A DNA stretch of 64,000 nucleotides, taken from an uncultured Flavobacteriaceae bacterium. GTDB lineage: Bacteria > Bacteroidota > Bacteroidia > Flavobacteriales > Flavobacteriaceae. Location: assembly GCA_947501845.1 (NCBI GenBank), contig CANMXP010000011.1, forward strand, positions 1-64,000, in the 5' to 3' direction. Positions 35,620-61,992 of this stretch are shown one piece after another. Both the position numbers and the translations under genes were made by a program. The notes beneath the pieces were generated by a model. It did not search any database. It had not been told where the DNA came from and saw only the letters and a program-made list of their open reading frames with translations. Each line of letters opens with the position of its first letter. Positions within the stretch are counted from its first letter, which is position 1.

Positions 35620-38600
35620 ATGAAATTACTAAAATTACTCAGGCAAAAATGCCAACATCGCATGTTCATGTTAGCCATAGTTTGGTTAGCAGGAATAGCA
35701 ATTGGGCATTCCCAAAACTTAACAATTACAGGTACCGTTACAGATCAATCTGGACAGCCTCTGGCAGGTGCTAACTTATTAATTAAGGGTACTACCAATG
35801 GTGCTCAAACCGATTTTGATGGGCTTTATTCTATTTCGGCTGAAAGCAATGCAACACTTGTTGTAAGCTATTTAGGTTTCGTTACTCAGGAAATTGCAGT
35901 AAATGGACGAAGCTCTATTAATATTTCTTTAGATGAAGATGCCAGTCAATTAGATGAGGTTGTGATTGTTGGATATGGATCTCAAAAGAAATCAGATCTA
36001 ACGGGAGCTGTTGCCACTGTAAGCAGTAAGGATATTGAAAAATATACTTTTACTGATCCTGCCCAAGCTTTACAAGGTAAAATGGCGGGTGTAAATGTAC
36101 AAGCTCAAGGTGGTTCACCTGGTTCTACTTCTATAATTACAATTAGGGGTGCTGGAACTCTTGGAGACGCTGGTCCACTATTTGTAATAGACGGTGTTAT
36201 TACAGGTAATATGAATTCCATTAACCCTGCAGATATTGATACGATATCTGTATTAAAAGATGCTTCTTCTACTGCTATTTATGGTTCTAGAGCTGCAAAT
36301 GGTGTTATTATAATAACTACCAAAAAAGGTAAAAAAGGTCAATTAACTATTGATTTAGATACCAGCTATGGTTTCAACAAAGTAATTAATGAGCTTAATT
36401 GGGCTAATGCCAGACAATATGCAGATATTGTAAATCAAGCAGATGACAATGATGGTAATTCAAGGTCTCCTGCAAACGACTCACAATTTAACCCTAATAA
36501 TACAAGCAACCTTTACAAAGAATCTTTAAGAACTTCAAGTGTCAAAAATACCAACCTTAGACTTTCGGGTGGCGGCGAGAACACACTATTTAGCCTGTCT
36601 TTAAACCATTTTGATAACGAGGGTGTCGTGAAGTTTTCAGATTTTAAAAGAACTACGGTGAGAGCTACTAGTTCATTCACAAAAGGAAAATTCCGTCTAG
36701 ATAATACTATTGGATTGACAAGAAGTGTTAATAATCCAAACAACTTTTTCAACAAAGAAAGAAACTTAATTCCAACAATACGTCTAAAAGATGATGAAGG
36801 AAATTGGAGTTCTTCTGACCTGCCTGATGGCCAAGCCTTAGGGGCATTTTATGGTCCTGGGACTATGATTAATGAACTAGGTATAGCTGCTTTACAAGAC
36901 AGAACAGTTACTAGAAATACCATTTTAGGTAGTTTAGCTGCTTCTTACGAAATTGTAGATGGATTAACTTATAAAATTAATTTAGGTTTAGAATCGTATG
37001 CAGACAATAACTACGAATTTACTCCAGATGACCAGATTTTTAAAGACGGAAACATTAAGCAGTTCTCAGAATTAAGAGAAAGAAATACAAATTTCTTATC
37101 AACTTTAATAGAACATACTTTAAATTATAAGAAGACTTTTGGAAAACACGGACTAGATCTTTTAGCTGGTTATACAGAACAGGAAAACAACACAAGGCAA
37201 TTAGGTGTTGTGGCTAGAAGGTTCCCTACAAACGATATTCGTGTAGCCAGAGCAGCAGAGGAAATACAAGAAGCTCCTTCATTCGACAGAACCTCAACTA
37301 TTCAATCTTATTTTGGAAGATTAAACTATTCTTTTGATAACAGATACCTTTTAACTGCTACAGTACGTAGAGATGGATCCTCTCTTTTTAAAGAAAGTTT
37401 AAGATGGGGAACCTTCCCTTCTATGGCTTTTGCATGGAATCTTAGTAACGAAAAGTTTATGGAAGATGTGAGTGCTATAACAAATATTAAACTAAGAGTT
37501 AGTTATGGTGAAATCGGTTCTAATAATGTGGATATTTATGCCATAGACCCCGAACTTAATCTATTTAGTGAGTATGTGTTAGGCGATACTCCAGAGAGAG
37601 TAACAGGGTATTCTATTACAAAAGGTGTTAATCCTTCTATTTTTTGGGAAACCACAAAAACAACCGATATAGGGCTTGATTTTAACGCCCTAAACAATAA
37701 GTTGAGTGTAACTATGGATTATTTCATTAAAGAATCAGAAGACATTCTTATTCCAATTCAACTTCCTTTATATACAGGCTTTACAAACGCTATTCCTTTT
37801 AACACAGCAAGTGTTGAAAACAAAGGATTTGAGTTTGTTGCAAGTTATAGTGATCAAATAAGTGATGATTTTTCCTTTAATATTTCAGCAAATTTCTCAA
37901 CATTAGATAATGTAGTAACAGATTTAGGTGGTTCTACACCTATTCGCCAAGGTTCATTTACATCAAATACTATAAACAGTACGAAAACTGATGTTGGACA
38001 ACCTATTGGCTCTTTCTTTGGTTATGTAGTTGATGGTATTTATCAAACAGATGCTGAAGCTACATCGGCTAATGACGCAGCAGGAAGCCCTGTTGCTGGA
38101 GATTTAAAATTCAAAGATTTAGACGGTGATGGTGATGTAGACGTTGACGACCAAACTTACCTAGGAAGTCCTATTCCAACTCTTGAATACGGGTTTAGTT
38201 TAGGAGCAAATTATAAGCAATTTGACTTAAACTTATTTTTCAATGGTGTTTCTGGGAATTCTATATTAAATGGTGTTAAATATAGAGGCCATTTTGATAC
38301 TGAAGGTAACTATTTTGCAGATGCTTTGAATGCATGGACACCAACCAATACAAATACCAATATTCCTAGAAATACGAAATCAGACAACGGTCAAAACAGA
38401 AGAATGTCTAGTTTCTATATAGAAAACGGCGCTTATTTTAGATTAAGAAATGCACAAATAGGATATAATTTCCCTAGTACAGTTCTGGATAAAATAAAGT
38501 TAAACAAGTTAAGATTATATGTGTCAGCAACTAATTTATTCACAATTACAGGCTATGAAGGATACTACCCAGAAGTAGGAAGAAATGGTAGAGGAGGTAC

Positions 38601-38709
38601 CAGTGGAGAACCTGGTAGAGTTGGTAACAAAGTATTTAACGCAGGTGTAGATGAAGGTACTTACCCGACTCCTAGAACCTATCAACTTGGATTACAAGTT
38701 TCTTTTTAA
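35620..38709 (+). CDS. SusC/RagA-type TonB-dependent receptor (module 1, no STN domain)
   Basis: 1029 residues with a signal peptide (about 1-31). It begins directly with a CarboxypepD_reg-like domain (ITGTVTDQSGQPLAGANLLIKGTTNG) and the TonB-box-like DEVVIVGYG, then the plug (LQGKMAGVNVQ, IRGAGTLGDAGPLFVIDGV, DASSTAIYGSRAANGVI) and a 22-strand barrel ending LGLQVSF. It pumps a bound ligand through the outer membrane together with SusD1. The missing N-terminal STN domain means it does not signal to an anti-sigma factor, which fits control by the HTCS three genes downstream. Confidence 0.95.
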   Translation: MKLLKLLRQKCQHRMFMLAIVWLAGIAIGHSQNLTITGTVTDQSGQPLAGANLLIKGTTNGAQTDFDGLYSISAESNATLVVSYLGFVTQEIAVNGRSSINISLDEDASQLDEVVIVGYGSQKKSDLTGAVATVSSKDIEKYTFTDPAQALQGKMAGVNVQAQGGSPGSTSIITIRGAGTLGDAGPLFVIDGVITGNMNSINPADIDTISVLKDASSTAIYGSRAANGVIIITTKKGKKGQLTIDLDTSYGFNKVINELNWANARQYADIVNQADDNDGNSRSPANDSQFNPNNTSNLYKESLRTSSVKNTNLRLSGGGENTLFSLSLNHFDNEGVVKFSDFKRTTVRATSSFTKGKFRLDNTIGLTRSVNNPNNFFNKERNLIPTIRLKDDEGNWSSSDLPDGQALGAFYGPGTMINELGIAALQDRTVTRNTILGSLAASYEIVDGLTYKINLGLESYADNNYEFTPDDQIFKDGNIKQFSELRERNTNFLSTLIEHTLNYKKTFGKHGLDLLAGYTEQENNTRQLGVVARRFPTNDIRVARAAEEIQEAPSFDRTSTIQSYFGRLNYSFDNRYLLTATVRRDGSSLFKESLRWGTFPSMAFAWNLSNEKFMEDVSAITNIKLRVSYGEIGSNNVDIYAIDPELNLFSEYVLGDTPERVTGYSITKGVNPSIFWETTKTTDIGLDFNALNNKLSVTMDYFIKESEDILIPIQLPLYTGFTNAIPFNTASVENKGFEFVASYSDQISDDFSFNISANFSTLDNVVTDLGGSTPIRQGSFTSNTINSTKTDVGQPIGSFFGYVVDGIYQTDAEATSANDAAGSPVAGDLKFKDLDGDGDVDVDDQTYLGSPIPTLEYGFSLGANYKQFDLNLFFNGVSGNSILNGVKYRGHFDTEGNYFADALNAWTPTNTNTNIPRNTKSDNGQNRRMSSFYIENGAYFRLRNAQIGYNFPSTVLDKIKLNKLRLYVSATNLFTITGYEGYYPEVGRNGRGGTSGEPGRVGNKVFNAGVDEGTYPTPRTYQLGLQVSF

Positions 38710-38725
38710 ACTAAAAAATAGAAAA

Positions 38726-40285
38726 ATGAAAAAAATAAAAAAATCTTTTAAAATCATCTTAGCATTACTAGCTATTTGCACCTTCAATGTAAATTGTAAT
38801 GAAGATGATCTAAATCAATCGAACCCAAACGCCGTAACTCCGAGCTCATTTTGGAAATCTGAAGAAGATGCTAAAAAAGGAATTATAGGTGCATACAGTC
38901 CACTTACTAATATTTTATACTACTCACGTTTTGAAATATTCTTGTCAGATTACAGAGATGATGTTATAAATGGTTTTGGTACTTCAGATAGAACGCAAGT
39001 TAGTTACTTTAATACCGACCCTGCTGGTAATCCAGTTAAATGGGTATGGCAAGCCATGTACCAGGGAGTAACAAGAGCCAATGAGGTATTATTTAGAGTT
39101 CCAGATATAGATATGGACCAACAAACAAAAGATAATATTCTTGGAGAAGCTCATTTTTTAAGAGCATTCAATTATTTTAACTTATTGAACAATTGGAGAA
39201 ACATTCCGCTACTTCAAGTACCATTTTCAGAAATAGAAGACCCTTTATCTATAGTACAAGCAACACCAGAAGAAGTTTGGGCTTTAATAGAATCAGATTT
39301 AAAAAGTGCACAATCATTGTTGCCTGATTCTTGGCCGTCAAATGAAACAGGAAGAGCTACTGCTGGAGCAGCTACTGGTTATTTAGGAAAAGCACTTTTA
39401 TATCAGAATAAATATGCCGAGGCCAAAGCTGAGTTCTCTAAAATTATGGGAGGCAGTTACCAATTAATGGATAATTATGCCCATAACTTTACTGAAGAGT
39501 TTGAAAATAATGCGGAATCATTATTCGAAATTCAATTAATCGCCGATGGTAACGGTGGTTGGGGCGGCGACGCACCAGGAAGAGGTAAAGGTTCTGGGTT
39601 TCAACCTGATTTAGCACCTGCAGGCTTTACTAATCAAGATGGTATGTCGGTTAACCAATGGGCTTTAGATTTATTTTTAGACGAAAGAACAATCAATAAT
39701 GAAATTGACCCTAGAACTTACTCAACATTCTTTTTTAACACCACAGAAACTACCACATATGAAGGGGGCGTTCTTTCCTCAAGAACTTATGGTAACCAAA
39801 CCTACGAAGAGGTGTTTGGTGCAGCAGGAACTACTACTTATGGAAATAAGTATACTGACTGGGCTTTTAATGGGCTTAGCCAGTCGTTGGCAGAAGGTTG
39901 GCATGGTGCTGGTAATAATTTAAGAATGTTACGCTATGCCGATGTTTTATTAATGTTTGCAGAAGCTGAATTTATGCTTAATGGTTCTACTCAAGTCGCG
40001 CTAGATGCCATTAATGAAGTACGTGAAAGAGTAGATTTAGCACCACATGCTTCCATTACCCTACAAGACATTGAAGATGAAAGAATTAAAGAGCTTACTT
40101 TCGAGCGTACTAGGTATTTTGACCTATTGCGTTGGGGCAAAGTGGTTGAAAGAATTGTAAATAATTCTGACTTTAAGTCTAATAGTGCTGGAACAAGTGC
40201 TTATAAGCCTGGTAGAGAATATATTGCTATTCCACAAAATGAATTAGATCAAAACCCAAATCTAGTGCAAAACCCTGGATATTAA
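38726..40285 (+). CDS. SusD/RagB-type surface lipoprotein (module 1)
   Basis: 519 residues from ATG 38726; an upstream in-frame start at 38651 would overlap susC1 and destroy the signal peptide. The lipobox is NVNC, followed by acidic NEDDLNQ, a lipoprotein export signal for the cell surface. SusD features are visible: SEEDAKKGIIGAYSPL near the start, EAHFLRAFNYFNLLNNW, and the C-terminal ERTRYFDLLRWGKVVERI and PQNELDQNPNLVQNPGY. It caps the SusC1 barrel and binds the ligand. Confidence 0.94.
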   Translation: MKKIKKSFKIILALLAICTFNVNCNEDDLNQSNPNAVTPSSFWKSEEDAKKGIIGAYSPLTNILYYSRFEIFLSDYRDDVINGFGTSDRTQVSYFNTDPAGNPVKWVWQAMYQGVTRANEVLFRVPDIDMDQQTKDNILGEAHFLRAFNYFNLLNNWRNIPLLQVPFSEIEDPLSIVQATPEEVWALIESDLKSAQSLLPDSWPSNETGRATAGAATGYLGKALLYQNKYAEAKAEFSKIMGGSYQLMDNYAHNFTEEFENNAESLFEIQLIADGNGGWGGDAPGRGKGSGFQPDLAPAGFTNQDGMSVNQWALDLFLDERTINNEIDPRTYSTFFFNTTETTTYEGGVLSSRTYGNQTYEEVFGAAGTTTYGNKYTDWAFNGLSQSLAEGWHGAGNNLRMLRYADVLLMFAEAEFMLNGSTQVALDAINEVRERVDLAPHASITLQDIEDERIKELTFERTRYFDLLRWGKVVERIVNNSDFKSNSAGTSAYKPGREYIAIPQNELDQNPNLVQNPGY

Positions 40286-40319
40286 CATAATTTTTAAGTT
40301 ACAGTTAATTTGTTTAAAC

Positions 40320-40358: not shown

Positions 40359-40367
40359 GAAAATTAT

Positions 40368-43300
40368 ATGATTCACTACTGGAAAAAAACATTCTTTTTA
40401 CTTGGTATTATTACCTTAGTCGCTTCTTGCTCGAAAAAAAAAACACGCGAGCATAGCACTACTTTTAACTCACTTAGCAAGGAACATTCCCAGGTTTTTT
40501 TTTCCAATAATATCATTGAAAATGATACACTAAATTACTTTAATTTTCCTTTTCTTTATCTAGGAAGTGGCGTCTCATCTGGTGATATTAATAATGATGG
40601 GCTTCCAGACCTTTATTTTACAGGCAACTTAGTTCCTAACAAACTTTATTTAAACAAAGGAGGCCTTAAATTCGAAGATATTACAGAATCTGCTGGTGTA
40701 AGTGGCGATTCTAGATGGTACTCAGGAACGACCATGGCCGACGTAAACAATGATGGATTTTTAGATATCTATCTAAGTGTCTCGGGAAAATCTGGAAATA
40801 GTGCCAATCAGTTATTTATAAATAATGGAGACAATACATTTTCTGAACAAGCGGAATCATTTGGTATTGCCGACAAAAGTAAATCCATACAATCTACCTT
40901 TTTCGATTATAACAATGATGGGTTTTTAGATCTATTCGTTGCTAATTACCCTACTGTATTAGTTAGTATGGGTAATATGTATTATAAGAGTAAAATGGAT
41001 GAAAATAGGTTTGAAGATTCTGGCCATTTATATAAAAATAATGGTAATGGAACATTTATAGATGTAACCACCTCGGCAGGGGTACAGCGCTTCGGACTTA
41101 CTTTGGGCATTGTTGCTTCAGACTTCAATAACGATGGGCACAAGGATCTTTACCTTTCAAATGATTTTAATGTACCCGATTACCTATATCTTAACAATGG
41201 GGATGGTACGTTTAATGAAGTTTCTAATCAAGTTTCCAGACATACATCTATGTTTGGAATGGGTATAGATGCTTCAGACTTTAATAATGATGGTTTAACA
41301 GATTTGCTACAAGTAGATATGACCGCCGAAGATTATAGCCGATCTAAAACCAATATGGCCAGTATGAGCCCTGAAACCTTTTATCAAGCAGTCGATTTAG
41401 GTTTTAACCATCAATATATGCAAAACTCCCTTCAGCTAAATAATGGTATTAATAAGGAAAACCTCCCTATTCTAAGTGATATTTCAAGATTTGCAGGAAT
41501 GGCTACTACAGACTGGAGTTGGGGTGCTATATTTTCCGATTTCGATAATGATGGTTGGAAAGATATCTTTATTAGTAACGGTGTAAAGCGAGATGTTAAT
41601 AATAATGATGTTAATGAAGCATATAAAACCGAAAGCCTTTTTGGCGTCAAAAAAGATTTAGATTATACGAAATTACCAAGTACTCCTATTTCAAATTATG
41701 CATATAAAAACAATGGAGACTTTACGTTTACCAAGGTCGCACACGAGTGGCAACTTGATGACAAAGGGTTTTCCAATGGGTTTACTTCTGTTGATCTAGA
41801 TAATGATGGAGATCTGGATCTTGTTGTGAATAATATGGACAACGCCGCATCAATCTACATAAACGAAACCCAAAACACAGCAAACAATTATTTAAAAATT
41901 AAACTTAACGGCCCAGCCAGCAACCCGTTTGGTCTTGGAACTAAAATTATAGTAAAAACTAAAAACTTAGAACAAAGCCAAGAGCTTACTACCACCAGAG
42001 GATATCAATCTAGTACAGAACCTGTTCTCCATTTTGGAATTGGCAAGTATAACATCATTGATGAAATAAAAATTACATGGCCAAATGGAAATGAGCAAGT
42101 TTTAAAAAATGTCGATGCAAATCAATTGATGAAAATTGAATTCGAAAATAGCCATTCAACAGAACAAACCCCTTCTAAAAAATATAATTTTAAAGACATT
42201 ACTGAAACATCAGGCATTACATTTTTTCATAAGGAAAACTTTTACAACGACTTTAAATTTGAACCTTTACTGCCTCATAAATATTCTACCGCTGGCCCAG
42301 CTCTAACCGTTGGCGATGTAAATGCAGATGGATTAGAAGATTTTTTTATTGGCAATGCTGCAGGAAGCTCTGGAGCTTTATATATTCAAAGAAATGATGG
42401 TACATTTAAAACCATTGAAGGACCTTGGATTCTGGATGCTCAATATGAAGATACAGGTGCTTTGTTGTTTGATGCCGATAATGATAATGACCTAGACCTG
42501 TACGTTGTAAATGGTGGCAATGACGCAACCAAACCAAGTACCGAATACCAGGATAGGTTATATATAAACACCCCTAATGGCTTTATTAAAGCAAATAATA
42601 CACTACCAGAAATTAAAGCAAGCGGTCAAAATGTAATATCTGGTGATTATGATAACGATGGTGATTTAGATCTATTTGTAGGGGGCAGAATAACACCTGG
42701 AAAATATCCATATCCAGCACAAAGCTATATATTAAGAAATGACGGAGGAACAAACACTAATCTAAAATATACAAATGTAACTTTAGAGTTAGCTCCAGAT
42801 TTAAATGAAGCTGGTTTGGTAACCAGTGCCATTTGGGATGATTATAACAAAGACGGCAAATTAGATTTAATTATTACTGGAGAATGGATGCCCATACGGT
42901 TCTTTAAAAACACAGGAACAGCATTTGAAGAAGAAACAGAACAACTTGACTTTAAAGATTATACAGGATGGTGGTACAGTCTTGAAAAATTAGATATAGA
43001 TAATGATGGCGATATGGATTACTTAGCTGGTAACCTAGGTTTAAATTATAAATATAAAGCGAGCAACAAAGAACCCTTTGAGGTGTATGCTAATGATTTT
43101 GATGAAAACGGATCCTCGGATATTGTTCTAAGCTATGAAAAAAACGGAACAAAATTACCCCTAAGAGGTAGAGAATGTTCTTCACAACAAGTACCAGCTA
43201 TTAAAAAGAGATTTAAAACTTTTGAGTCTTTTGCCAACGCAAATTTAATAGACATCTATGGAAAAAACATGTTGGAAGGCTCTTTAAGCTATTCAGTAAA

Positions 43301-43679
43301 TACATTTGCGCACCATATAATAAAAAATGATGGCAATGGCTCTTTTAGCCTTCATAAATTACCCAATCGCTCTCAATTTTCGTCAATAAATAAATTTGTT
43401 AACTTTGATTATAACGGTGACAAGTACCCCGACTTGTTAATTGGGGGCAACCTTTATGGCGCAGAAGTAGAAACCCCACGTAATGATGCTAGTATAACTG
43501 CCGTACTTCAAGGAAGTGCAGATGGTTTCTCCGTTTTAAGCTCAGAAAGTACTGGCCTATTTGTTAATGGTGAAATTAAAGATATAATACCAATACATTT
43601 AGGAAAAGATAATACACTTGCATTTCTAATAGCACCAAATAATGATACCTTAAAATTGTGGACTCTGAATAAAAACTAG
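40368..43679 (+). CDS. FG-GAP/VCBS-ASPIC/UnbV lipoprotein (module 1), CRTAC1-like
   Basis: 1103 residues, lipobox VASC followed by basic KKK. Seven DxNxDGxxD FG-GAP motifs (SSGDINNDGLPDLYF to VDLDNDGDLDLVV) precede an ASPIC/UnbV domain at about 507-590 (LKIKLNGPASNPFGLGTK, ITWPNGNEQVLKNV). Seven more follow (VGDVNADGLEDFF to FDYNGDKYPDLLIGG). This predicts two calcium-binding seven-bladed propellers joined by the ASPIC domain, as in animal CRTAC1. A shared motif, RGRECSSQQVP with Cys937, lies in the last propeller. Role unknown: ligand binding beside SusCD is inferred. It is followed by the HTCS gene in the same operon. Confidence 0.9.
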   Translation: MIHYWKKTFFLLGIITLVASCSKKKTREHSTTFNSLSKEHSQVFFSNNIIENDTLNYFNFPFLYLGSGVSSGDINNDGLPDLYFTGNLVPNKLYLNKGGLKFEDITESAGVSGDSRWYSGTTMADVNNDGFLDIYLSVSGKSGNSANQLFINNGDNTFSEQAESFGIADKSKSIQSTFFDYNNDGFLDLFVANYPTVLVSMGNMYYKSKMDENRFEDSGHLYKNNGNGTFIDVTTSAGVQRFGLTLGIVASDFNNDGHKDLYLSNDFNVPDYLYLNNGDGTFNEVSNQVSRHTSMFGMGIDASDFNNDGLTDLLQVDMTAEDYSRSKTNMASMSPETFYQAVDLGFNHQYMQNSLQLNNGINKENLPILSDISRFAGMATTDWSWGAIFSDFDNDGWKDIFISNGVKRDVNNNDVNEAYKTESLFGVKKDLDYTKLPSTPISNYAYKNNGDFTFTKVAHEWQLDDKGFSNGFTSVDLDNDGDLDLVVNNMDNAASIYINETQNTANNYLKIKLNGPASNPFGLGTKIIVKTKNLEQSQELTTTRGYQSSTEPVLHFGIGKYNIIDEIKITWPNGNEQVLKNVDANQLMKIEFENSHSTEQTPSKKYNFKDITETSGITFFHKENFYNDFKFEPLLPHKYSTAGPALTVGDVNADGLEDFFIGNAAGSSGALYIQRNDGTFKTIEGPWILDAQYEDTGALLFDADNDNDLDLYVVNGGNDATKPSTEYQDRLYINTPNGFIKANNTLPEIKASGQNVISGDYDNDGDLDLFVGGRITPGKYPYPAQSYILRNDGGTNTNLKYTNVTLELAPDLNEAGLVTSAIWDDYNKDGKLDLIITGEWMPIRFFKNTGTAFEEETEQLDFKDYTGWWYSLEKLDIDNDGDMDYLAGNLGLNYKYKASNKEPFEVYANDFDENGSSDIVLSYEKNGTKLPLRGRECSSQQVPAIKKRFKTFESFANANLIDIYGKNMLEGSLSYSVNTFAHHIIKNDGNGSFSLHKLPNRSQFSSINKFVNFDYNGDKYPDLLIGGNLYGAEVETPRNDASITAVLQGSADGFSVLSSESTGLFVNGEIKDIIPIHLGKDNTLAFLIAPNNDTLKLWTLNKN

Positions 43680-43730
43680 ACTTATCGAATGATTATAAGA
43701 AACAAAAAAATAACAACCAAAGCTCTCAGA

Positions 43731-46700
43731 ATGAAAAAACTGTCTAGGGTTGTTTTTTTTATACTTTGTTTTTTATTTTCAAAAATTAATAGCTCTCAAA
43801 ATTTAGGGTATTTTGAACGCATTACCACGGATAACGGTTTGTCCCAAAGTGATATTAACACGATTCACCAGGATAAAGATGGTTTTATGTGGTTTGGAAC
43901 CCATGATGGTTTGAACAAATATGATGGTTATAGTTTCAAAATCTTCAATCCTGATTCAAATATTCCCGAGAGCATAACAAATAATTTAATCTTTGATATT
44001 GAAGAGGACCAAAATGGAAATTTTTGGATTGGAACTACTGGAGGTGGGCTCATATTTTTTGATAAGTCATCTGAAAAGTTCAAAACCTATACTTATGACA
44101 AAAACAACTTAAAAAGTATAAATAGCAACTATATATACAACATTTATATAGACCGAGAGAATCGCTTATGGATTGGAACTAGTGAAGGGTTAAATATGTT
44201 GAATTTAGAAAACTCTAATAATGTTGTGGAGTTTCAACGCTTTAAGCCCCATCTAGAACCCTTTATACCTAATATAAATGTAAGTTCTGTAAACACCATT
44301 TATCAAGATAGAAAGGGACGTATTTGGACGGGAGGACCTGGAGGACTTTACAGGCTATCACGAGAACGTAATGGCGATATGTATTTTAAATTTCTAAATG
44401 AAGACATTGGTTTACCAAATTTAGCGGTATCATCTATTGACGAAGACAAGGAAGGTCGTTTGATAATAGCCACAAATAAAGGCTTGTTCTACCAATCTAA
44501 AATCGACACGTCACTTAAGTTCAAAAAAATCCTTAATGGAAATTTTCGCTGTTTATTAGCAGATGAAAATATTATTTGGGCTGGAAATGAAAGTGGATTG
44601 GATTATTTAAAAATTTCATCCGACAAGGAGTTTCCTGAATTAATTCAGCATTTCGAATATAATCCCACAAACCCAAATAGTTTAAGTAAAAATATAGTTA
44701 CGTCTTTATTTAAAGACAAAACAGGGATTATTTGGATAGGAACGAATGGGGGTGGCGTCAATAAATTCAACCCTGGAAGAAATCGATTTGATCATGTTAG
44801 AAAAACTTTGAAGCCAAACAGCCTTAGCTATGACAAAATAAGATCTTTTTTTGAAGACAGTAACGGAAATTTATGGATTGGGACTGAAGGTGGTGGCGTA
44901 AGCATGAAACCTAAACAAAGTAAAGACAATACTTTTTTTAATTTTGATACTGTAACTAACATATTTGCCATAGAAGAAATTGAATTGGGCAATAGGAAAA
45001 AACTACTGTTTGGCAGTAGAAATTTGATAAGCCTGTATATGTTAGATATTACAGACCCATCTAAAATAAGAACTAACAAAATTTTACCTGTAGAAGAAAT
45101 AACTGGCGGTGTTTTTTCTATTCTTTCAGATAGTAACAAAACTATTTGGATCGGGACTTACGAAGTTGGCATCTATCGTTGGACACCAAAAAGAGGCACA
45201 AATCAATATGTAACAGATATTTTCATGTCTAATCCCAATGACCCAAGTAGTATTTCAAATAATATTATTAGAAATATTTATGAGGATAGCAAGGGAAATA
45301 TTTGGTTTGCAACTGGAGATGGGCTGAACAGACTCACAAAAGAAGAAGCTTTAAAAAAGCATCCTAAATTTCAAGTTTACAAGCATATTGTTAGAGACAA
45401 AACGAGTATTAGTCATAATTATATTTTACCCATTTATGAAAGCGCAAAGGGAGAGCTTTGGATAGGTACCTTTGGGGGCGGCTTAAATAAATTTATTCCA
45501 GAAACCGAAAATAATCCAGCCAGTTTTAAATCCTATTCAGATAAAGATGGGCTTCCCAATAAAGTGATTAAAGGAATTTTAGAAGATGAAAGTGGCAACC
45601 TCTGGCTTTCCACCAATAAAGGGCTTTCCAAATTCAATCCTGAGCTAGAAATTTTTAAAAATTATGATGTAAATGATGGTTTACAAAGTAATGAATTTCA
45701 AGAGTTAGCCTGTCTTAAAAGACGTAACAATGAGATGCTTTTTGGAGGAATCAACGGCTTCAATTCGTTTTTTCCAAAAAACCTAGTTGAAAATACATTT
45801 GAGCCCGAAACGATTATAACCAATTTTTTAATCTCTAATCAGCCTGTCTCTACTCGAGATAAAATTAACGATCGTGTTATATTGGAAAAAACCATTAGCA
45901 AAACTCAAGAAATTAATCTAAAATATTTTGAAAACAACATCTCTTTCGAATTTGCTGCTTTGCATTATGCTGCTTCACAAAAAAATCAATTCGCTTACAA
46001 GTTAGAAGGCTTTGAAAAAAATTGGGAACAAACAACTTCCAATAAGCGTTTTGCCTCTTATACAAATCTAGAGCCTGGTATTTATACGTTTTATGTAAAA
46101 GCCACAAACAATGATGGCTTATGGGATAAAACGCCATCAAAAATTCAAATAAACATTAGCCCTCCTTATTGGCTTTCCAATACGGCATATTTTCTATATT
46201 CCCTCATAGTCATCGGGCTTCTAATTGCTTTTAGAAAATACACCATTATAAATACCACTAAGAAACACCAATTAGAACTAGAGCATTTAGAAAAAGAGAA
46301 AAACGAAGAATTACAACAACTTAAAATAGAATTCTTCACTAATATTTCGCATGAAATTCGCACCCCCCTAACTTTAATAAAAGGCCCCTTAGAATACTTA
46401 AAACAATCCTATACACAATTAGATAAAAACGTTGTTTTACACCAACTAAACCTAATGCAAAAAAATACAGATTCTCTATTGCGTTTAGTTAATCAGTTGC
46501 TTGGTTTTAGAAAAATGGACAAAGGTAAAATGACACTAACACTCTACAAGAGCAATATTATTGAGTTTGTATATGAACTTATTCAACCCTTTCAATTTCT
46601 ATGCAAAAAGCGTCATATAAACATTGAAATAAATCATTCTGATGATAACATAACGACTTGGTTTGACCCTAATGCTGTTGAAAAAATATTAAACAACCTG

Positions 46701-53630: not shown

Positions 53631-55118
53631 ATGAAAAATTATAAATTATTAATTTTGGCAGCTTTAACACTTGTTTTTAGCTGTTCCGAGTTGGAGGAAG
53701 ACCCAAAGGGTATACTTACTCCTTCTACGTTTTACCAAACGCAAACAGATCTCGATGCTGGAATAACAGCAATATATAGACCCTATATGGAGTTTTTCTT
53801 GAATGCTCAAGGATCAATCCCTTCTTTAGCAGGAGATGATGTGACTACGCGTTTAGGCTCTAATAAAAGTGATTATCGTGAATTTGATCAGTTCCAATAT
53901 ACCTCAGGTAATGGTTGGTTAAAAGAACATGGTTGGAATCATTTATACCGAACTATATTTTTTGCAAACGCTGTCATTTCAAATTACACAAATGCTCCCG
54001 AAGGAACAGAAAGAGAGCAGGCTGCGGCTCAAGCTTTCTTTTTAAGAGGTTGGGCATATTTTCAACTGGTTAGAACTTGGGGCCCCGTTCCTATAGTTAC
54101 GTCTGATCTAGCTACTGGAGAAGAACCTAGGTCTCCAGAGAGTGACGTTTTTGATTTAGCAATTTCTGATCTTCAATTCGCTATAAACAACTTGCCTCCG
54201 TCTTGGCCTAATGAACCAGGTAGACCTACATCTTGGGCAGCAAAACACATGTTGTCTAAAGTATATATAACTACAGCTGGTTGGCCTTTAAAAATTACTG
54301 CTAACTATGCTAAGGCAGCAGAACTGGCCAAAGATGTTATAGATAACTCTGGTCATGATTTAATGCCTAATTTTAGAGATGCTTGGCTAGAAGAGAATGA
54401 TAATAATATTGAAAGTGTATTAGCTGTACAAGCTGATAACGGTGGCGATTGGGGTCTAAGTAATAGAATGCCTCTTTCTGTTGGTGCTCCTGATGATGAC
54501 CCTGGTAATGGATGGGATGATTATTTTGCTGAAATTGCTTTCTTTAATGAGTTTCCTGAAGGACCAAGAAAAGATGATACTTTTAGAACAACCTTTGCTA
54601 ATGGAACGCTTACATGGGAACAAACTATTCAAGGTAACCCATATTACTCTAAACTTACAGGGTATAGACTTCCTCAAAACTGGCAATTTAGTGGTAACCC
54701 ATACGTTTTAAGGTTTGCAGACGCATTACTTGTATATGCTGAAGCTCAAAATAAAGCTGATGGAGGACCAAATGCTGCAGCTTATGAAGCAGTTAACAAA
54801 ATAAGAAGAAGAGCTGCTGGTGTTAATGACAATAGTGTTGATTTATCTGGTCTTAGCAGTGATGATTTTCATGATGCTGTTATAGCTGAAGCTGGATGGG
54901 AATTTGCTGGAGAATGGCACAGATGGTACAACTTAGTAAGAAACGAAATGGTTGCAGAAGCTACTTCCAAACGAATTACTGATGATAGAGAACTACCGTT
55001 AGTAGGTGCATCTGCTGGAGATCCAGAAAGTGCGTTCAGAAAATTTTATTATGCACCAATTCCATTAACAGAAATGTTATTAAGACCAGACTGGGAACAA
55101 AACGATTGTTGTAACTAA
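53631..55118 (+). CDS. SusD/RagB-type surface lipoprotein (module 2)
   Basis: 495 residues, lipobox FSC followed by acidic SELEEDPKG, again a surface-export signal. SusD features: TQTDLDAGITAIYRPY, AQAFFLRGWAYFQLVRTWGPVPIV, the TPR-like middle, and the C-terminal WEFAGEWHRWYNLVRNEMV. It is clearly diverged from SusD1 in length and sequence, so the two modules are not a recent duplication. It starts 18 bp after susC2. Confidence 0.94.
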   Translation: MKNYKLLILAALTLVFSCSELEEDPKGILTPSTFYQTQTDLDAGITAIYRPYMEFFLNAQGSIPSLAGDDVTTRLGSNKSDYREFDQFQYTSGNGWLKEHGWNHLYRTIFFANAVISNYTNAPEGTEREQAAAQAFFLRGWAYFQLVRTWGPVPIVTSDLATGEEPRSPESDVFDLAISDLQFAINNLPPSWPNEPGRPTSWAAKHMLSKVYITTAGWPLKITANYAKAAELAKDVIDNSGHDLMPNFRDAWLEENDNNIESVLAVQADNGGDWGLSNRMPLSVGAPDDDPGNGWDDYFAEIAFFNEFPEGPRKDDTFRTTFANGTLTWEQTIQGNPYYSKLTGYRLPQNWQFSGNPYVLRFADALLVYAEAQNKADGGPNAAAYEAVNKIRRRAAGVNDNSVDLSGLSSDDFHDAVIAEAGWEFAGEWHRWYNLVRNEMVAEATSKRITDDRELPLVGASAGDPESAFRKFYYAPIPLTEMLLRPDWEQNDCCN

Positions 55119-55306: not shown

Positions 55307-58300
55307 ATGCATTCAAACAAACCTGTTTTCATTGCTATTATTTCTGCTTTAATCTTTTTTGGTTGTAAAAAACCAAATATATCGAATACCCTATTTAAGA
55401 GCATTTCTAAAGAACATTCTAATATCAATTTTAACAATATCCTTACTGAGACAGATTCTCTTAATTATTTTATTTATCCGTACTTATATCTAGGCGGAGG
55501 TGTAGCGGCAGGCGATATTAATAATGATGGTTTATCAGACATTTTCTTTGTTGGTAATATGGTAGAAAATAAAATATACCTCAACAAAGGAGAGATGAAA
55601 TTTGAAGATATAACTAGGTCTTCAAACCTAGTAGGGGATAACAAATGGCACACAGGTGTTACTATGTGCGATGTAAACAATGATGGTTATTTAGACATAT
55701 ACCTAAATGTTTCTGGCAAAGAAGAAAACAAACAAAATAAACTATACATCAACAACAAAGATTTAACGTTTACTGAATCTGCTCAAGAATATGGCATAGC
55801 AGATAATGGGTCTTCTATTCAATCTGTTTTTTTTGATTTTGACAATGATGGCGACCTAGATTTATATGTGGCTAATTATCCCATAGCTCCCTTTGGTAGT
55901 CCCAATGCTTTCTATCTACATAAGATGAAAAACTTAAAACATGAAGAAAGTGATCATTTATACGAAAATTTAGGAAATGGAAAATTTGAAGATATAACTA
56001 GCAAAAGTGGTATAGCAAACTACGGATTAACATTAGGAGTTAGCGTTGGAGATTTCAATATGGATGGTTACCAAGATATATACATATCAAATGATTTTAA
56101 TACCCCAGATAAATTTTTCACAAACAATGGAGATGGCTCATTTACCGATAAGTTAAAGCTAGCTACTTATCAAACGGCCTGGTTTGGAATGGGTACTGAT
56201 GCCGCCGATTATAATAATGATGGCCTACTTGATATCATGCAAGTGGACATGACACCAAGGGACAATAGACGAGCTAAAGAAAACATGGCTAGTATGAATG
56301 CTCCGCTATTCTGGAATACTGTTAATAGTGGCTTTCATTATCAATACATGTTTAATTGTCTGCAACTTAACAGGGGCGTGAATCCCAAAAAAGGGGTTCA
56401 ATTTAGTAATACCGCAAGAGTTGCTGGAGTGTCTACTACAGATTGGAGTTGGGCACCATTATTTGCCGATTTTGATAACGATGGATGGAAAGATATTTTC
56501 ATCACAAACGGTATTAAAAGAGACGTAAATAATAAAGACTTCTTTAAAGCGAAAAAGGCAAAAGCAAATTTTACTGGCAAAATTGATGGCTCTGCTTACC
56601 AAAAAATTCCTTCTGAACCCATAGAAAATCATGCTTACAAAAATAATGGCGATTTAACTTTTAATAATGTAGGTGAAAATTGGGGGGTTAACCTTAAAGG
56701 TTTTTCACATGGTTGTGCCTATGCCGATTTTGATAATGATGGCGATTTAGACTTGGTTGTAAATAATATGGATCAAACGGCTAGCCTCTATCAAAATCAA
56801 TTAGAAACACAAGGGAGAAAATATTTAAGAATAAAACTAAATGGAAACCCAAAAAATCATTTTGGCATAGGGACTAAAGCCAAACTTTATCACAAGGGAA
56901 AAATACAATATCAGGAGTTAACATTAACACGTGGTTACGAGTCTTCTGTCGAGCCTATATTACATTTTGGTTTAGACAATATAAAAACAATAGATAGCCT
57001 TTCTATAACATGGCCTGACGGTAAAAAACAAAGCCTTGTAAATGTAAAGACTAATCAGCTTTTAAATATAAATTATTCTAACGCGAACCTTAGTTTAAAA
57101 ACTAAAAATAAAGAACCCAAGTTTGAAGATATAACCCAAACCTTAGCGCTAGACTTTAAGCATGATGAAAATGAACATAGCGACTACCTCTTTGAACCTC
57201 TTTTGCCTCATCAAAATTCTAAATTAGGTACGGGATTGGCTGTAGCAGATGTGAATAATGATGGTCTAGACGACTTTTATGTTGGTAATGCCCATAAGGC
57301 TCAAGGAGCCATGTATCTGCAAAATATTGATGGTTCCTTTACCGAAACCCCTGGACCTTGGGTTACTGATAATGAATATGAAGATATGGGAGCACTATTT
57401 TTTGATGCCGATGGAGATAACGATCAAGATTTATATGTCGTTAGTGGTGGTAACGAATTTTTGAAAAACCAAGAATTTCTTCAAGACAGACTATATATTA
57501 ACAATGGAAACGGAGAATTTAAAAAAGCCACACAAAGCTTACCAACCATGTTAACAAGTGGCAGTTGTGTAAAATCTGGGGATTTTGATAATGATGGGGA
57601 TTTAGACTTGTTTGTTGCTGGAAGGCTAGTACCAGGAAAGTATCCGCTCGCCCCAAGAAGTTATATCTTGAGAAACGACGGCGTGAATGAGAATGAACCA
57701 CAATTTACAGATGTTACAGAACAAATTGCTCCAGATGCAGTCTCTCCTGGCTTAGTTACAGATGCGTTATGGTCAGATTTTAATAATGATGGGCAATTAG
57801 ATTTAATTATAACTGGAGAATGGATGCCTATATTATTTTTCGAAAATAATAACGGTAAGTTTCAAAATAAAACAGAAGCATTAGGACTACAAAACCAAAT
57901 TGGCTGGTGGTACAGTTTGGCAGAAGGTGATTTTGACCAAGATGGAGACAAAGATTATATTGCTGGAAATTTAGGTCTAAATTACAAATACCAAGCGACA
58001 TATGATGAGCCTTTCGAGCTCTATTCTGGCGATTTTGATAAAAATAAAAGACTTGATATTGTTTTAGGCTATCACCAAGATGGCAACAAATATCCTGTAA
58101 GAGGACGACAGTGTTCTTCTGAACAAATTCCCTTAATTAGCTTAAAATTTAAAGACTATAGCTCGTTTGCAAATGCTAGCCTAGTAGACATTTATGGAAA
58201 AGAAAACCTTGAAAATGCTTTACACTTAAGCGCTACTACTTTTGCTAGTAGTATCATTATAAATAACAAACAGAATCCTTGGGAAATAAAACCATTACCT

Positions 58301-58612
58301 TCATTAGCTCAACTATCTTCAACCAACAGCATCATTGTAAAAGATTTTAATGGCGATACTAATTTAGATCTTATCTTAGCTGGAAATTTATATACTTCTG
58401 AAGTTGAAACCCCTAGAAATGACGCCAATCTAGGACTCTATTTAACTGGAAATGGGAAAGGACAATTTAAAGCTATAGATGCCGTTAAAAGTGGATTGTA
58501 CCTTGATGGTGATGTTAAACAAATTGAACTTATTAAAGCAGGTAAAGGCGAAAACAAAATTTTATCTATAGCCAACGATGATTATTTAAAAATTATAAAC
58601 ATAAAGAATTAA
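55307..58612 (+). CDS. FG-GAP/VCBS-ASPIC/UnbV lipoprotein (module 2, first)
   Basis: 1101 residues, lipobox FFGC followed by KKPN. It has the same plan as VCBS1 and is closer to it than to VCBS3: seven FG-GAP motifs (AAGDINNDGLSDIFF to ADFDNDGDLDLVV), ASPIC/UnbV at about 504-590 (LRIKLNGNPKNHFGIGTK, ITWPDGKKQSLVNV), and seven more motifs (VADVNNDGLDDFY to KDFNGDTNLDLILAG). The conserved RGRQCSSEQIP has Cys936, and GNLYTSEVETPRNDA closes the last blade. No catalytic motif is recognisable. It is separated from VCBS3 by 8 bp, so the two are translated together. Confidence 0.9.
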   Translation: MHSNKPVFIAIISALIFFGCKKPNISNTLFKSISKEHSNINFNNILTETDSLNYFIYPYLYLGGGVAAGDINNDGLSDIFFVGNMVENKIYLNKGEMKFEDITRSSNLVGDNKWHTGVTMCDVNNDGYLDIYLNVSGKEENKQNKLYINNKDLTFTESAQEYGIADNGSSIQSVFFDFDNDGDLDLYVANYPIAPFGSPNAFYLHKMKNLKHEESDHLYENLGNGKFEDITSKSGIANYGLTLGVSVGDFNMDGYQDIYISNDFNTPDKFFTNNGDGSFTDKLKLATYQTAWFGMGTDAADYNNDGLLDIMQVDMTPRDNRRAKENMASMNAPLFWNTVNSGFHYQYMFNCLQLNRGVNPKKGVQFSNTARVAGVSTTDWSWAPLFADFDNDGWKDIFITNGIKRDVNNKDFFKAKKAKANFTGKIDGSAYQKIPSEPIENHAYKNNGDLTFNNVGENWGVNLKGFSHGCAYADFDNDGDLDLVVNNMDQTASLYQNQLETQGRKYLRIKLNGNPKNHFGIGTKAKLYHKGKIQYQELTLTRGYESSVEPILHFGLDNIKTIDSLSITWPDGKKQSLVNVKTNQLLNINYSNANLSLKTKNKEPKFEDITQTLALDFKHDENEHSDYLFEPLLPHQNSKLGTGLAVADVNNDGLDDFYVGNAHKAQGAMYLQNIDGSFTETPGPWVTDNEYEDMGALFFDADGDNDQDLYVVSGGNEFLKNQEFLQDRLYINNGNGEFKKATQSLPTMLTSGSCVKSGDFDNDGDLDLFVAGRLVPGKYPLAPRSYILRNDGVNENEPQFTDVTEQIAPDAVSPGLVTDALWSDFNNDGQLDLIITGEWMPILFFENNNGKFQNKTEALGLQNQIGWWYSLAEGDFDQDGDKDYIAGNLGLNYKYQATYDEPFELYSGDFDKNKRLDIVLGYHQDGNKYPVRGRQCSSEQIPLISLKFKDYSSFANASLVDIYGKENLENALHLSATTFASSIIINNKQNPWEIKPLPSLAQLSSTNSIIVKDFNGDTNLDLILAGNLYTSEVETPRNDANLGLYLTGNGKGQFKAIDAVKSGLYLDGDVKQIELIKAGKGENKILSIANDDYLKIINIKN

Positions 58613-58620
58613 AATCTTTA

Positions 58621-61600
58621 ATGAAAGGATTAAAAATTAGCATAGAAATTAATATATTACTTTTTATAAGTATGTGTTTTATAATCACACTTTATTCTTG
58701 TAAAAGTGATAAAAACGATGATACCACAATACCACAAAATACGCAAAGCGAAGACCCAAAACTTTTTAGTCATGTGAACTCCTCAGATTCTGGTATTAAT
58801 TTTATTAATCTACTAACAGAAACCGAAAATTATAACTACTTCAAATACAGTTATTCTTATTTAGGTGGAGGAGTTGCATCTGCAGATTTTAATAATGATG
58901 GTTTACAGGATTTGTTTTTTATTTCTAATAGTAATCAAAATACATTGTATTTAAACAAAGGTGATTTTAAGTTTGAAGACATCACATCATCAACGGGAAT
59001 AAATCCAACAGATGGCTTTAATACGGGTGTTACAGTCGTCGATATAAATCAAGATGGTTTCTTAGATATTTACATTTCAAGAGGCGGTTATCTTGAAGAT
59101 AACAATAAATTTGCCAATTTGCTTTATTTAAATAATGGTGATTTAACATTTACCGAAAAAGCCAAGGAACACGGATTAGACGATTCTAATAGAACCATTC
59201 AGGCAACGTTTTTTGACTACGATAATGATAACGATCTAGATGTATATCTTTCCAACACGCCAAACGTAACAGCTAAATCAAGAATTATAGATTTAGAAAA
59301 AATTAGTAACGACTCTAAAACATTAACTTTAAAAGGAAGTGATAGATTATATGAAAATGACGGTACTGGCCACTTTAAAGATATTACAAAAAAAGCAGGC
59401 ATAGGGTTTGATATTGGTTTTGGCTTAAACCCACAAATAGGAGATATAAATAACGATGGTTGGCTGGATATTTATGTGTGCAATGATTTTAACATGCCCG
59501 ACTTTGTGTACATTAATAATGGTAACGGCACATTTAAAGAGAAAAGAGATTCTATTTTTAAGCACATGTCTTTTAATAGTATGGGAAGCGATTTTGCCGA
59601 TGTTAATAATGATGGCTTTTTTGATTTGATAACGTTAGACATGAATCCTGAAGACTATGTTAGATCAAAAACCACAATGACAATGACTTCGGTTGGAAGA
59701 TTTGAAAATATGGTGAAATCTGGCTACCACTATCAATATATGCATAATATGCTACAATTAAATAATGGTAATGGTACATATAGAGAGATTAGTAAGTTAT
59801 CGGGAATGGCAGATACAGACTGGAGTTGGGCCGTGCTTTCTGCCGATTTTAATTTAGATGGGCTAAATGATATTTATATTACTAACGGTGTTTTTAGAGA
59901 TGTTATGGATAGAGACACACATAATAATACGCTAAAAATTCTTAGAAAAAATGGCAGAAAACCAACTAACAAAGATTTTCTGGAATTTACTAAAATGATG
60001 CCGCAACAAAAACTTGTAAACTACATATATAAAAACAATGGCGACCTAACATATAGTAACGTTTCAACCCAATGGATAGACGCTCATCCTACATTTTCAA
60101 ATGGTGTTGTATATACCGATTTGGACAATGATGGTGATCTTGATATGGTAACCAATAATATTAATGATAAAGCCACCGTATTAAAAAACAACGCTATAGA
60201 ACAAAACAAAGGTGAATACCTAAAAATTAAATTTAAAGGTCCTAAAAACAATGTAAACGGTCTTGGAGCAAAAGTTAAGTTATATCAAGAAAATGGTGTC
60301 ATTCAAACACGCCAATTAATCAATACTCGTGGATTTTTGTCTTCAGTTTCTAATATTTTACATTTTGGTATATCAAAAAATATTTCTATCAAAAAATTAG
60401 AAGTGCAATGGCTGGATGGCAAACAACAAACTCTTGAAAATATTGAATCTAATACGCTCTTAAATATTTCTTATGAAAACGCAATAGATGAAATAAATTC
60501 ATCAGAAATAAAAAGTAACAAGTTATTTTCGAAGCTAGCAACAAATTATAAGCATGAAGACCCTTATTTTAATGATTATGACTTACAAGTCTTACTGCCT
60601 CACAAATTGTCTCAAACAGGACCTGCGTTAACTAAAGCAGATGTTAACCACGATGGAATTGATGACATTTACATAGGTGGCGGGCGTGACCAACCTGGTC
60701 AATTGTTAATTGGGAAATCAAACGGATCTTTCCGTATTAAACCTGTGACCGATTTTAATAACGATAAATTTTATGAGGACCAAGGTGCCGCTTTTTTTGA
60801 CGCTGATAATGATGGAGATCAAGATCTGTACGTTGTAAGCGGTAGTTATGAGATTTATAACACACCCAAACTGCTACAAGACAGACTATATATTAATGAT
60901 GGTAAGGGAGGCTTTACTGCTTCTAGCAATAGTGACTTACCTAAAATTACGTCATCTGGCTCTGTTGTAATCCCTTCAGACTTTGATAGTGATGGCGATA
61001 TAGACTTGTTTGTTGGAGGCCGGGTAATTCCTGGTAAATATCCTAATTCGCCAACAAGCACTTTATTAATTAATGATAAAGGGGTTTTTACTATAAAGAC
61101 TAAAGAAATTGCCCCAAATCTTGAGCAAGTAGGCATGGTAACCAGTGCCTCCTGGCAAGATATTAATAACGATAGTAAATTAGATTTAATTCTAACTGGC
61201 GAATGGATGGGAATAGAAGTATTTATTAATCAAGATAATAAACTGATTAAAAGCGATCTATACAAAAATCTTTATAAAACTGTTGGCTGGTGGAACAAAG
61301 TATTGGTAGTTGATGTTGATAACGATGGTGACAATGATATAATAGCTGGAAATTTAGGGCTAAATTATAAGTTCCATGCATCAAAAGAAAAACCATTTCA
61401 AATCTATTCAACAGATTTTGACTTGAATGGAACCGAAGATATCATTCTTGCTAAAGAATACAATGGAAAAGAAGTACCTGTAAGAGGGAAAACTTGTATG
61501 ACGCAACAAATCCCTCACTTAGCACAAAAAATCCCTAATTATAACGATTTTGCAAATAGAAACCTTGAAAGTATTTTAGGTGAACAAATTAATAGTGCTT

Positions 61601-61992
61601 TAAACTACAAAGCAACAGAATTTAGATCTGGTATCTTTATAAATAATGGAACTTCTGGGTTTGCTTTTTCTCCATTTGAAAACACATTACAGCAATCTCC
61701 AATAAACAGTATTGTTTATTATGATATTAACAATGATGGCATTAAAGATCTTATTTTAGCAGGGAACAATTACCAGTCGGAAGTTGAAACCACAAGAGCC
61801 GATGCTGGAATTGGAAACGTTCTGCTGGGTGAAAAAAGCGGTGGTTTTAAAAGTATATCTCATTTAAAATCAGGATTCTTTGCAGATAAGGATGTAAGAC
61901 ACATGGAACTAATTGAAATGGGAAATGAAAAAATTATTTTTGTTGCCAATAATAATGATTATCATGCTTTATTTAAAATAAATGCGTTCTAA
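58621..61992 (+). CDS. FG-GAP/VCBS-ASPIC/UnbV lipoprotein (module 2, second)
   Basis: 1123 residues, lipobox LYSC followed by KSDKNDD, more acidic than in its two paralogues. Seven FG-GAP motifs (SADFNNDGLQDLFF to TDLDNDGDLDMVT), ASPIC/UnbV from about 530 (LKIKFKGPKNNVNGLGAK, QWLDGKQQTLENI) and seven more (KADVNHDGIDDIYI to YDINNDGIKDLILAG). The shared motif reads RGKTCMTQQIP with Cys959. It is the most divergent of the three. Its stop overlaps the end of the convergent glycosyltransferase gene by 4 bp and no terminator lies between. Confidence 0.9.
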   Translation: MKGLKISIEINILLFISMCFIITLYSCKSDKNDDTTIPQNTQSEDPKLFSHVNSSDSGINFINLLTETENYNYFKYSYSYLGGGVASADFNNDGLQDLFFISNSNQNTLYLNKGDFKFEDITSSTGINPTDGFNTGVTVVDINQDGFLDIYISRGGYLEDNNKFANLLYLNNGDLTFTEKAKEHGLDDSNRTIQATFFDYDNDNDLDVYLSNTPNVTAKSRIIDLEKISNDSKTLTLKGSDRLYENDGTGHFKDITKKAGIGFDIGFGLNPQIGDINNDGWLDIYVCNDFNMPDFVYINNGNGTFKEKRDSIFKHMSFNSMGSDFADVNNDGFFDLITLDMNPEDYVRSKTTMTMTSVGRFENMVKSGYHYQYMHNMLQLNNGNGTYREISKLSGMADTDWSWAVLSADFNLDGLNDIYITNGVFRDVMDRDTHNNTLKILRKNGRKPTNKDFLEFTKMMPQQKLVNYIYKNNGDLTYSNVSTQWIDAHPTFSNGVVYTDLDNDGDLDMVTNNINDKATVLKNNAIEQNKGEYLKIKFKGPKNNVNGLGAKVKLYQENGVIQTRQLINTRGFLSSVSNILHFGISKNISIKKLEVQWLDGKQQTLENIESNTLLNISYENAIDEINSSEIKSNKLFSKLATNYKHEDPYFNDYDLQVLLPHKLSQTGPALTKADVNHDGIDDIYIGGGRDQPGQLLIGKSNGSFRIKPVTDFNNDKFYEDQGAAFFDADNDGDQDLYVVSGSYEIYNTPKLLQDRLYINDGKGGFTASSNSDLPKITSSGSVVIPSDFDSDGDIDLFVGGRVIPGKYPNSPTSTLLINDKGVFTIKTKEIAPNLEQVGMVTSASWQDINNDSKLDLILTGEWMGIEVFINQDNKLIKSDLYKNLYKTVGWWNKVLVVDVDNDGDNDIIAGNLGLNYKFHASKEKPFQIYSTDFDLNGTEDIILAKEYNGKEVPVRGKTCMTQQIPHLAQKIPNYNDFANRNLESILGEQINSALNYKATEFRSGIFINNGTSGFAFSPFENTLQQSPINSIVYYDINNDGIKDLILAGNNYQSEVETTRADAGIGNVLLGEKSGGFKSISHLKSGFFADKDVRHMELIEMGNEKIIFVANNNDYHALFKINAF

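Follow-up and report, generated by a model that had tools for sequence, protein, structure and literature searches.

Two separable SusCD cassettes with two-propeller ASPIC/UnbV lipoproteins as probably periplasm-facing partners in an uncultured Flavobacteriaceae bacterium

We analysed a stretch of 64,000 nucleotides from an uncultured Flavobacteriaceae bacterium (assembly GCA_947501845.1, contig CANMXP010000011.1, positions 1 to 64,000; hereafter the window), in which positions 35,620-61,992 encode two SusC-SusD (SusCD) pairs and three large lipoproteins with an ASPIC/UnbV domain between two propellers (ASPIC1, ASPIC2, and ASPIC3). This locus consists of two neighbouring and separable cassettes, not of one enzyme-free system. 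Cassette 1 is made up of SusC-SusD-ASPIC and a hybrid two-component system (HTCS) regulator, and cassette 2 of SusC-SusD-ASPIC-ASPIC with an extracytoplasmic function (ECF) sigma factor and FecR. Our preferred reading, which we hold at slightly below even confidence, is that these are uptake cassettes in which a generic, periplasm-facing ASPIC partner would receive or process the cargo of SusCD. The SusCD cassettes with their known regulators are the ordinary part of this locus, and the new part is a frequent, conserved double-propeller partner that probably faces the periplasm. The genes of the locus are:

35620-38709, + strand: SusC1, TonB-dependent transporter (Pfam plug and barrel; TIGR04056, 887 bits; no STN domain found)
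38651-40285, + strand: SusD1, lipoprotein (PF07980/PF14322; orthologues of 522-523 aa)
40368-43679, + strand: ASPIC1, two-propeller ASPIC/UnbV lipoprotein (ASPIC domain 41931-42131)
43689-47969, + strand: HTCS regulator of cassette 1 (Pfam Reg_prop, Y_Y_Y, HisKA, HATPase, receiver, and HTH_18)
48256-48804, + strand: ECF sigma factor of cassette 2 (Pfam)
48967-50151, + strand: FecR anti-sigma factor of cassette 2 (Pfam)
50292-53612, + strand: SusC2, with an N-terminal STN domain at about 50496-50645 (Pfam, NCBIfam)
53631-55118, + strand: SusD2, lipoprotein with an acidic mature N-terminus (Pfam, NCBIfam)
55307-58612, + strand: ASPIC2, two-propeller lipoprotein (propeller 1 about 55394-56815, ASPIC domain 56864-57064, propeller 2 about 57107-58609)
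58621-61992, + strand: ASPIC3, two-propeller ASPIC lipoprotein (ASPIC domain 60259-60462)

The separability of the cassettes is evident from related genomes. SusC1, SusD1, ASPIC1, and the HTCS lie behind the same oxidoreductase gene in all five same-genus genomes, with the HTCS adjoining ASPIC1 in each of the five loci read, no extra gene inside cassette 1, and ASPIC1 orthologues of 81-90% identity. In three of these genomes (G001, G004, and G002), cassette 1 stands alone and a glycosyltransferase gene comes next. In G011, a second cassette follows cassette 1, arranged as in the window. G010 carries a divergent second cassette at the same place (SusD 32% and ASPIC3 67% identical), with a tetratricopeptide repeat (TPR) protein (L201:634-2271) between the two. 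In G002, cassette 2 is on a different contig and is followed by a TPR protein; its SusC2, at 1,007 aa, is shorter, and the stretch read gave no match to sigma/FecR. A genus-wide search of 12 genomes detected two-propeller ASPIC proteins in 11 of them, at 0 to 12 copies per genome, and ASPIC1 at 81% identity or above in six, including the genome that hosts the locus (the host genome). Cassette-2-like loci repeatedly have a TPR protein of about 546 aa as a neighbour (L068:13326-14966, L204:3718-5352, and L201:634-2271).

The gene inventory proposed by a first-pass annotation of this DNA (two susC-susD pairs, an HTCS, an ECF sigma/FecR pair, and three proteins of about 1,100 aa) matches the open reading frames (ORFs) listed above, and both tandem SusC/SusD pairs were confirmed by Pfam and NCBIfam. 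The listed ORF of SusD1 overlaps SusC1 and contains an internal methionine followed by a leader-like stretch, so that translation probably begins near 38,720. An STN domain is present on SusC2, beside ECF/FecR, and none was found on SusC1, beside the HTCS; an STN-bearing SusC is the usual companion of ECF/FecR, which fits SusC2. Within ASPIC1-3, each about 1,100 aa long and bearing a lipobox cysteine, Pfam recognised FG-GAP/FG-GAP_3 repeats and one central UnbV_ASPIC domain above the cut-off and nothing else. The FG-GAP_3 model scored 8, 9, and 9 stretches in ASPIC1, ASPIC2, and ASPIC3, and UnbV_ASPIC scored 77.7, 78.6, and 68.2 bits (cut-off 23.4). Pfam detected no degradative-enzyme domain in any of the ten proteins of the locus, and separate searches with the two propeller halves of ASPIC2 gave none either. 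Profile searches thus bear out the earlier statement that the locus lacks recognisable degradative enzymes (CAZymes, sulfatases, esterases, or peptidases). A CAZyme, sulfatase, or peptidase domain within the VCBS proteins, named by the first-pass annotation as a possible refutation, was not found. The flanking genes are unrelated to the locus: an FAD/NAD/2Fe-2S oxidoreductase upstream, and a glycosyltransferase of family 9 and a DUF4254 protein downstream. In its SusC-SusD pairs, its HTCS or ECF/FecR regulators, and the STN domain carried by the SusC beside ECF/FecR, the locus resembles a polysaccharide utilization locus, but neither cassette carries a degradative enzyme, and the third component is the two-propeller ASPIC protein.

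The association between these proteins and SusCD extends well beyond this contig. We scanned the best 80 of 520 confirmed loci in named genomes, picked by ASPIC similarity and mostly from Bacteroidota, with one Calditrichota metagenome-assembled genome (MAG). With the first SusD model, SusD was directly upstream of the ASPIC gene in 36 loci; a further 15 had SusC/D upstream within the operon, and 12 had it at another place in the stretch. In 13 loci there was neither, and 4 lay at a contig edge. A broader SusD model placed SusD directly upstream in 40. The first-pass annotation had proposed the VCBS/ASPIC proteins to be functional partners of SusCD, and the presence of SusC or SusD in the stretch of 63 of these 80 homologous loci (broader model) supports this. 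A lack of co-occurrence in other genomes, which it had named as a possible refutation, is not what we see: co-occurrence is strong, with SusD directly upstream in 40 loci. A class-wide sample of 60 genomes, the host genome included, is less biased than the loci selected by ASPIC similarity. In this sample, an ASPIC domain was encoded in 27 genomes and a SusD recognised by PF14322 in 22. We read 20 stretches, comprising all hits outside the host genome with ORFs of 1,050-1,250 aa and some others, and assigned proteins to the two-propeller clade at a profile score above 700. Among the 16 two-propeller proteins so defined, six were directly in SusCD operons, one had SusCD nearby, and nine were without it (one of the nine stretches holds a SusC-like match of 25 bits). 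Strict dependence on SusCD is ruled out by these nine. The two-propeller ASPIC protein is a frequent, non-exclusive partner of SusCD.

The host genome displays the same pattern. It encodes 15 ASPIC proteins. Two Pfam models for SusD gave 28 matches each, which together amount to 29 positions. Twelve of the 15 ASPIC genes are within 10 kb of a SusD, a distance that covers 10% of the genome (binomial p 3e-10); with clusters as the unit, 9 of 12 are near SusD (p 1.6e-7). Eleven of the 15 are of the two-propeller type, and the other four are shorter or longer and have no recognised lipobox. Other SusCD-ASPIC loci of this genome contain, respectively, a glycoside hydrolase (GH) of family GH16 with two GH17, a GH30, and a GH2-type domain; two GH3 with an alpha/beta hydrolase and a multihaem cytochrome; a GH88, a GH95, pectate-lyase-like proteins, and a sulfatase; a GH42-like protein, at a contig edge; a GH36 match below threshold (26.6 bits, cut-off 27) with a sodium symporter, an FGGY kinase, and a glycerophosphate-oxidase-like protein; haloperoxidase-like and esterase-like proteins; enolase-superfamily proteins with a major facilitator superfamily transporter; and a divergent GH3 about 1.5 kb past SusC. 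Since these loci have enzymes nearby, the enzyme-free cassettes are exceptional even within their own genome. The idea of a new system specific to this locus is ruled out by the 15 ASPIC genes of the host, most of whose SusCD-linked members are near an enzyme gene. The earlier claim that the locus defines an uncharacterised uptake system is not supported, as sibling ASPICs reside in enzyme-carrying SusCD loci and other genomes encode the protein without SusCD.

The GH36-like locus of the host (L013:6525-18199) displays the gene order SusC-SusD, GH36 match, sodium symporter, FGGY kinase, glycerophosphate-oxidase-like protein, and ASPIC. In loci L034 and L035, genes of nearly equal lengths are arranged alike. 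We regard this type as a candidate uptake operon for galactosylglycerol (floridoside-like) compounds. At L015:8529-16764, an ASPIC of single-propeller size without a lipobox is followed by haloperoxidase-like and esterase-like proteins.

Sequence divergence provided insights into how closely the three components of the cassettes evolve. Among 45 SusC-SusD-ASPIC triplets, mean identity was 0.44 for ASPIC, a value inflated by the selection of the 80 loci by ASPIC similarity, 0.30 for SusC, and 0.24 for SusD. In eight triplets of the host genome, several of whose SusC sequences are incomplete at stretch ends, the means were 0.47, 0.33, and 0.28. Pairwise distances were correlated at 0.77 between SusC and SusD, 0.29 between SusC and ASPIC (p 0.0002), and 0.15 between SusD and ASPIC (p 0.035). 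The corresponding values within the host genome were 0.53, 0.19, and 0.16, the latter two not significant. ASPIC thus appears to be the most conserved member of the cassette, co-diversifying weakly with SusCD. We also followed polar loop residues, selected for their conservation, in loops assigned from DSSP strings and the calcium-loop pattern. Conservation of these positions was 98% for propeller 1 and 91% for propeller 2 across 82 homologues, 94% and 82% across the nine class-sample proteins without SusCD, and 94% and 76% across the seven with SusCD. Their retention in proteins without SusCD suggests that the conserved residues are independent of it, and weakens the notion that ASPIC serves solely as a docking module for SusCD.

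The N-termini of the mature proteins indicate on which side of the outer membrane they might reside. A published signal for the surface export of lipoproteins in Bacteroidetes consists of a short acidic segment that follows the lipidated cysteine, with the form K-(D/E)2 in Capnocytophaga and SDDFE derived from the SusDs of F. johnsoniae (PMC5080379). Our measure was the net acidity at positions +2 to +7. No acidic export signal of the SusE/F type was found at the mature N-terminus of ASPIC1-3, which scored -4, -2, and 0, respectively, and all eleven two-propeller ASPICs of the host scored 0 or below. Mean net acidity was -0.14 in 85 ASPICs (30 of them at 1 or above), retained from 95 after leaving out 10 without a recognised lipobox, and 2.05 in 62 SusDs (54 at 1 or above), retained from 65 after leaving out 3. 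As controls, 22 SusE rows, including a few low-scoring Pfam hits, averaged 2.68 (20 at 1 or above) and 21 BamD proteins averaged -0.24 (one at 1 or above), under a simple lipobox rule that misplaces the cysteine of L118. Within 54 same-operon pairs, some sharing a SusD, the SusD was more acidic than the ASPIC in 47, tied in 1, and lower in 6; with one pair per locus (46 loci), the counts were 40, 1, and 5 (Wilcoxon p 3e-8). An acid pair at +3 to +6 was present in 23 of 62 SusDs and 11 of 85 ASPICs. Most ASPIC proteins thus begin, once mature, without an acidic signal like that of SusD and SusE and are similar to BamD instead, so that the two-propeller ASPIC proteins are predicted to face the periplasm, on the inner side of the outer membrane.

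Collectively, the export signal missing from most N-termini, the high conservation, the weak co-diversification, and the residues independent of SusCD argue against a ligand-specific surface binder and for a generic role. The earlier proposal of a binding protein for a large ligand therefore keeps its partnership with SusCD and loses ground on the binding, weakened by the missing signal and by the weak tracking of SusCD divergence.

Several observations weigh against our preferred reading. As nine of the 16 class-sample members have no SusCD operon, the core function of ASPIC may not concern SusCD at all. The correlation between SusC and ASPIC is weak yet significant, and the identity of ASPIC in the triplets owes something to how the loci were selected. 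The net acidic N-terminus of 30 ASPICs and the acid pair of 11 mean that some may be surface exposed, and ten proteins without a recognised lipobox are outside the set. Other lipoproteins of the same stretches, of unspecified location, resemble ASPIC (mean net 0.23). The export signal itself is a predictor characterised in few species, and BamD is one orthologue group.

Structural comparison places these proteins among known propellers. The AlphaFold model of ASPIC2 (82 homologues; pLDDT 94, pTM 0.93) matched CRTAC1 and propeller proteins, with murine CRTAC1 (9etn_A) as the best solved structure (Z 39.1, root mean square deviation (rmsd) 2.4, 464 aligned residues) and also the best sequence match (E 5.7e-28). 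Both join an FG-GAP propeller to an ASPIC/UnbV domain; unlike CRTAC1, the ASPIC proteins add a second propeller after this domain, a bacterial lipoprotein anchor, and linkage to SusCD. Propeller 2 matched LGI1 (Z 30.4), a chain of the KICSTOR complex (28.4), and aldos-2-ulose dehydratase (27.7; rmsd 3.3, 357 aligned). Fold likenesses of this sort are widespread in propellers and do not establish a function. Compared with solved structures by sequence, propeller 2 had no match below E 0.01 except CRTAC1; a sequence link to aldos-2-ulose dehydratase was not found, and the fold match stands alone. That enzyme has a catalytic metal site in its propeller. It shares FG-GAP/VCBS blades (PF13517) with the ASPIC proteins, which differ in having no cupin domain match or recognised catalytic site. 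A survey, in the excerpt available, places its propeller in the VCBS superfamily (PMC8023676), and an excerpt of another study describes a further bacterial context of the ASPIC/UnbV family, a CRTAC1-annotated gene next to homologues of hydrazine synthase (PMC12758564).

Under our preferred reading, SusCD would capture and import an oligosaccharide for which the enzymes would be encoded elsewhere in the genome. The ASPIC lipoprotein, with its two conserved propellers around the ASPIC domain, would be anchored facing the periplasm, as its N-terminus suggests, and, judging from its conservation, its job would be generic, independent of the glycan chosen by SusCD. Most likely, it would receive the oligosaccharide behind SusC and hold or process a common feature before periplasmic hydrolases or inner-membrane transport take over. 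One alternative is a surface glycan-binding protein in the position of SusE/F, which would feed SusCD from outside; we consider this rather unlikely. Its appeal is that the ASPIC gene comes directly after susD and encodes a lipoprotein, that 30 of 85 ASPICs do have a net acidic N-terminus, and that a precedent exists: in the excerpts available, XusB, a seven-bladed propeller, is a surface-exposed lipoprotein forming a lid on a TonB-dependent transporter of another Bacteroidota system (PMC13142918). BtuG is likewise a lipoprotein partner of such an outer-membrane transporter (PMC10404256). The single propeller of XusB is itself the lid; in both ASPIC cassettes a SusD lid is encoded, and ASPIC1-3 have two propellers and no typical surface-export signal. 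Against a surface role, most ASPICs lack this signal, unlike SusD and SusE; their co-diversification with SusCD is weak (0.15 with SusD, 0.29 with SusC), and the same motifs persist in host loci with different enzymes and in loci free of SusCD.

Another explanation, unlikely in our judgement, is that propeller 2 (or 1) represents a new class of enzyme acting on a feature common to many glycans, such as an oxidised or dehydrated sugar. Propeller 2 has histidine, glutamate, arginine, tryptophan, and aspartate residues outside the calcium-loop pattern that are conserved in at least 70 of 82 homologues and largely kept without SusCD, aldos-2-ulose dehydratase is among its fold neighbours, and some gene neighbours are oxidoreductases or haloperoxidase-like. 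Yet these residues may be structural, propellers that are not enzymes score equally or higher (LGI1), and CRTAC1 is the sole sequence match of propeller 2 below E 0.01 among solved structures. ASPIC could also help the SusCD complex to assemble or to stay stable and handle no ligand, in agreement with its generic conservation across cassettes and its co-operonic position. This appears very unlikely to us: the host has 29 SusD positions against 11 two-propeller ASPICs, and some stretches that lack SusCD encode the protein with the conserved residues in place.

Bacteroidota take up glycans mainly through SusCD importers, and to our knowledge little is established about what receives the cargo once it has passed SusC. 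The large conserved protein encoded after SusD in many lineages is a concrete and testable candidate for this receiver. A wider, rather doubtful generalization is that two-propeller ASPIC/UnbV lipoproteins are an unrecognised, substrate-agnostic component of many Bacteroidota SusCD importers at the periplasmic face, serving as a general receiver or a processing enzyme. A receiver of this kind would also provide the bacterial members of the ASPIC/UnbV family, to which mammalian CRTAC1 belongs, with a firm functional context. The open literature searched, from which most subscription-journal papers are missing, yielded no paper that joins UnbV or VCBS proteins with SusD.

Gene neighbours gave hints about substrates. 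The nearest relatives of cassette 1 among named loci are L041, L054, L073, and L030. In the first three, a GH29 fucosidase is encoded between SusD and ASPIC, and L073 additionally carries the L-fucose symporter FucP. Because GH29 sits in these sister cassettes, fucose-containing glycans are the likely substrate of cassette 1 and our best guess. The one gene scanned in L030 was no fucosidase, which speaks against this assignment. Nine GH29 genes are present in the host, all of them on other contigs. The closest homologues of ASPIC3 among named loci are from Kriegella and Zobellia. The nearest relatives of ASPIC3 include L068, L076, and L089, which displayed a TPR protein, GH43-like proteins, sulfatases, and sugar-acid oxidation enzymes in the genes scanned.

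Some further observations concern the distribution and neighbours of ASPIC genes. Among the 82 of 129 listed neighbour genes of the named loci that were scanned, PAP2 was the commonest family (6 of 82). Outside Bacteroidota, a contig of the Calditrichota MAG (L062) displayed the order SusC-SusD-ASPIC-1223 aa protein-ASPIC. Viral contigs contributed 12 loci, with 25-32% identity across parts of the query. G078 C55:7374-20539 and G068 C3:123850-132133 hold five and four ASPIC matches, respectively, in ORFs of about 840-930 aa, apparently as tandem arrays. Adjacent ORFs of 874 and 624 aa at L022:5468-10515 share nearly identical first 40 residues, which suggests a tandem duplication. Finally, positions 6743-7867 of the window encode a Fic/DOC family protein.

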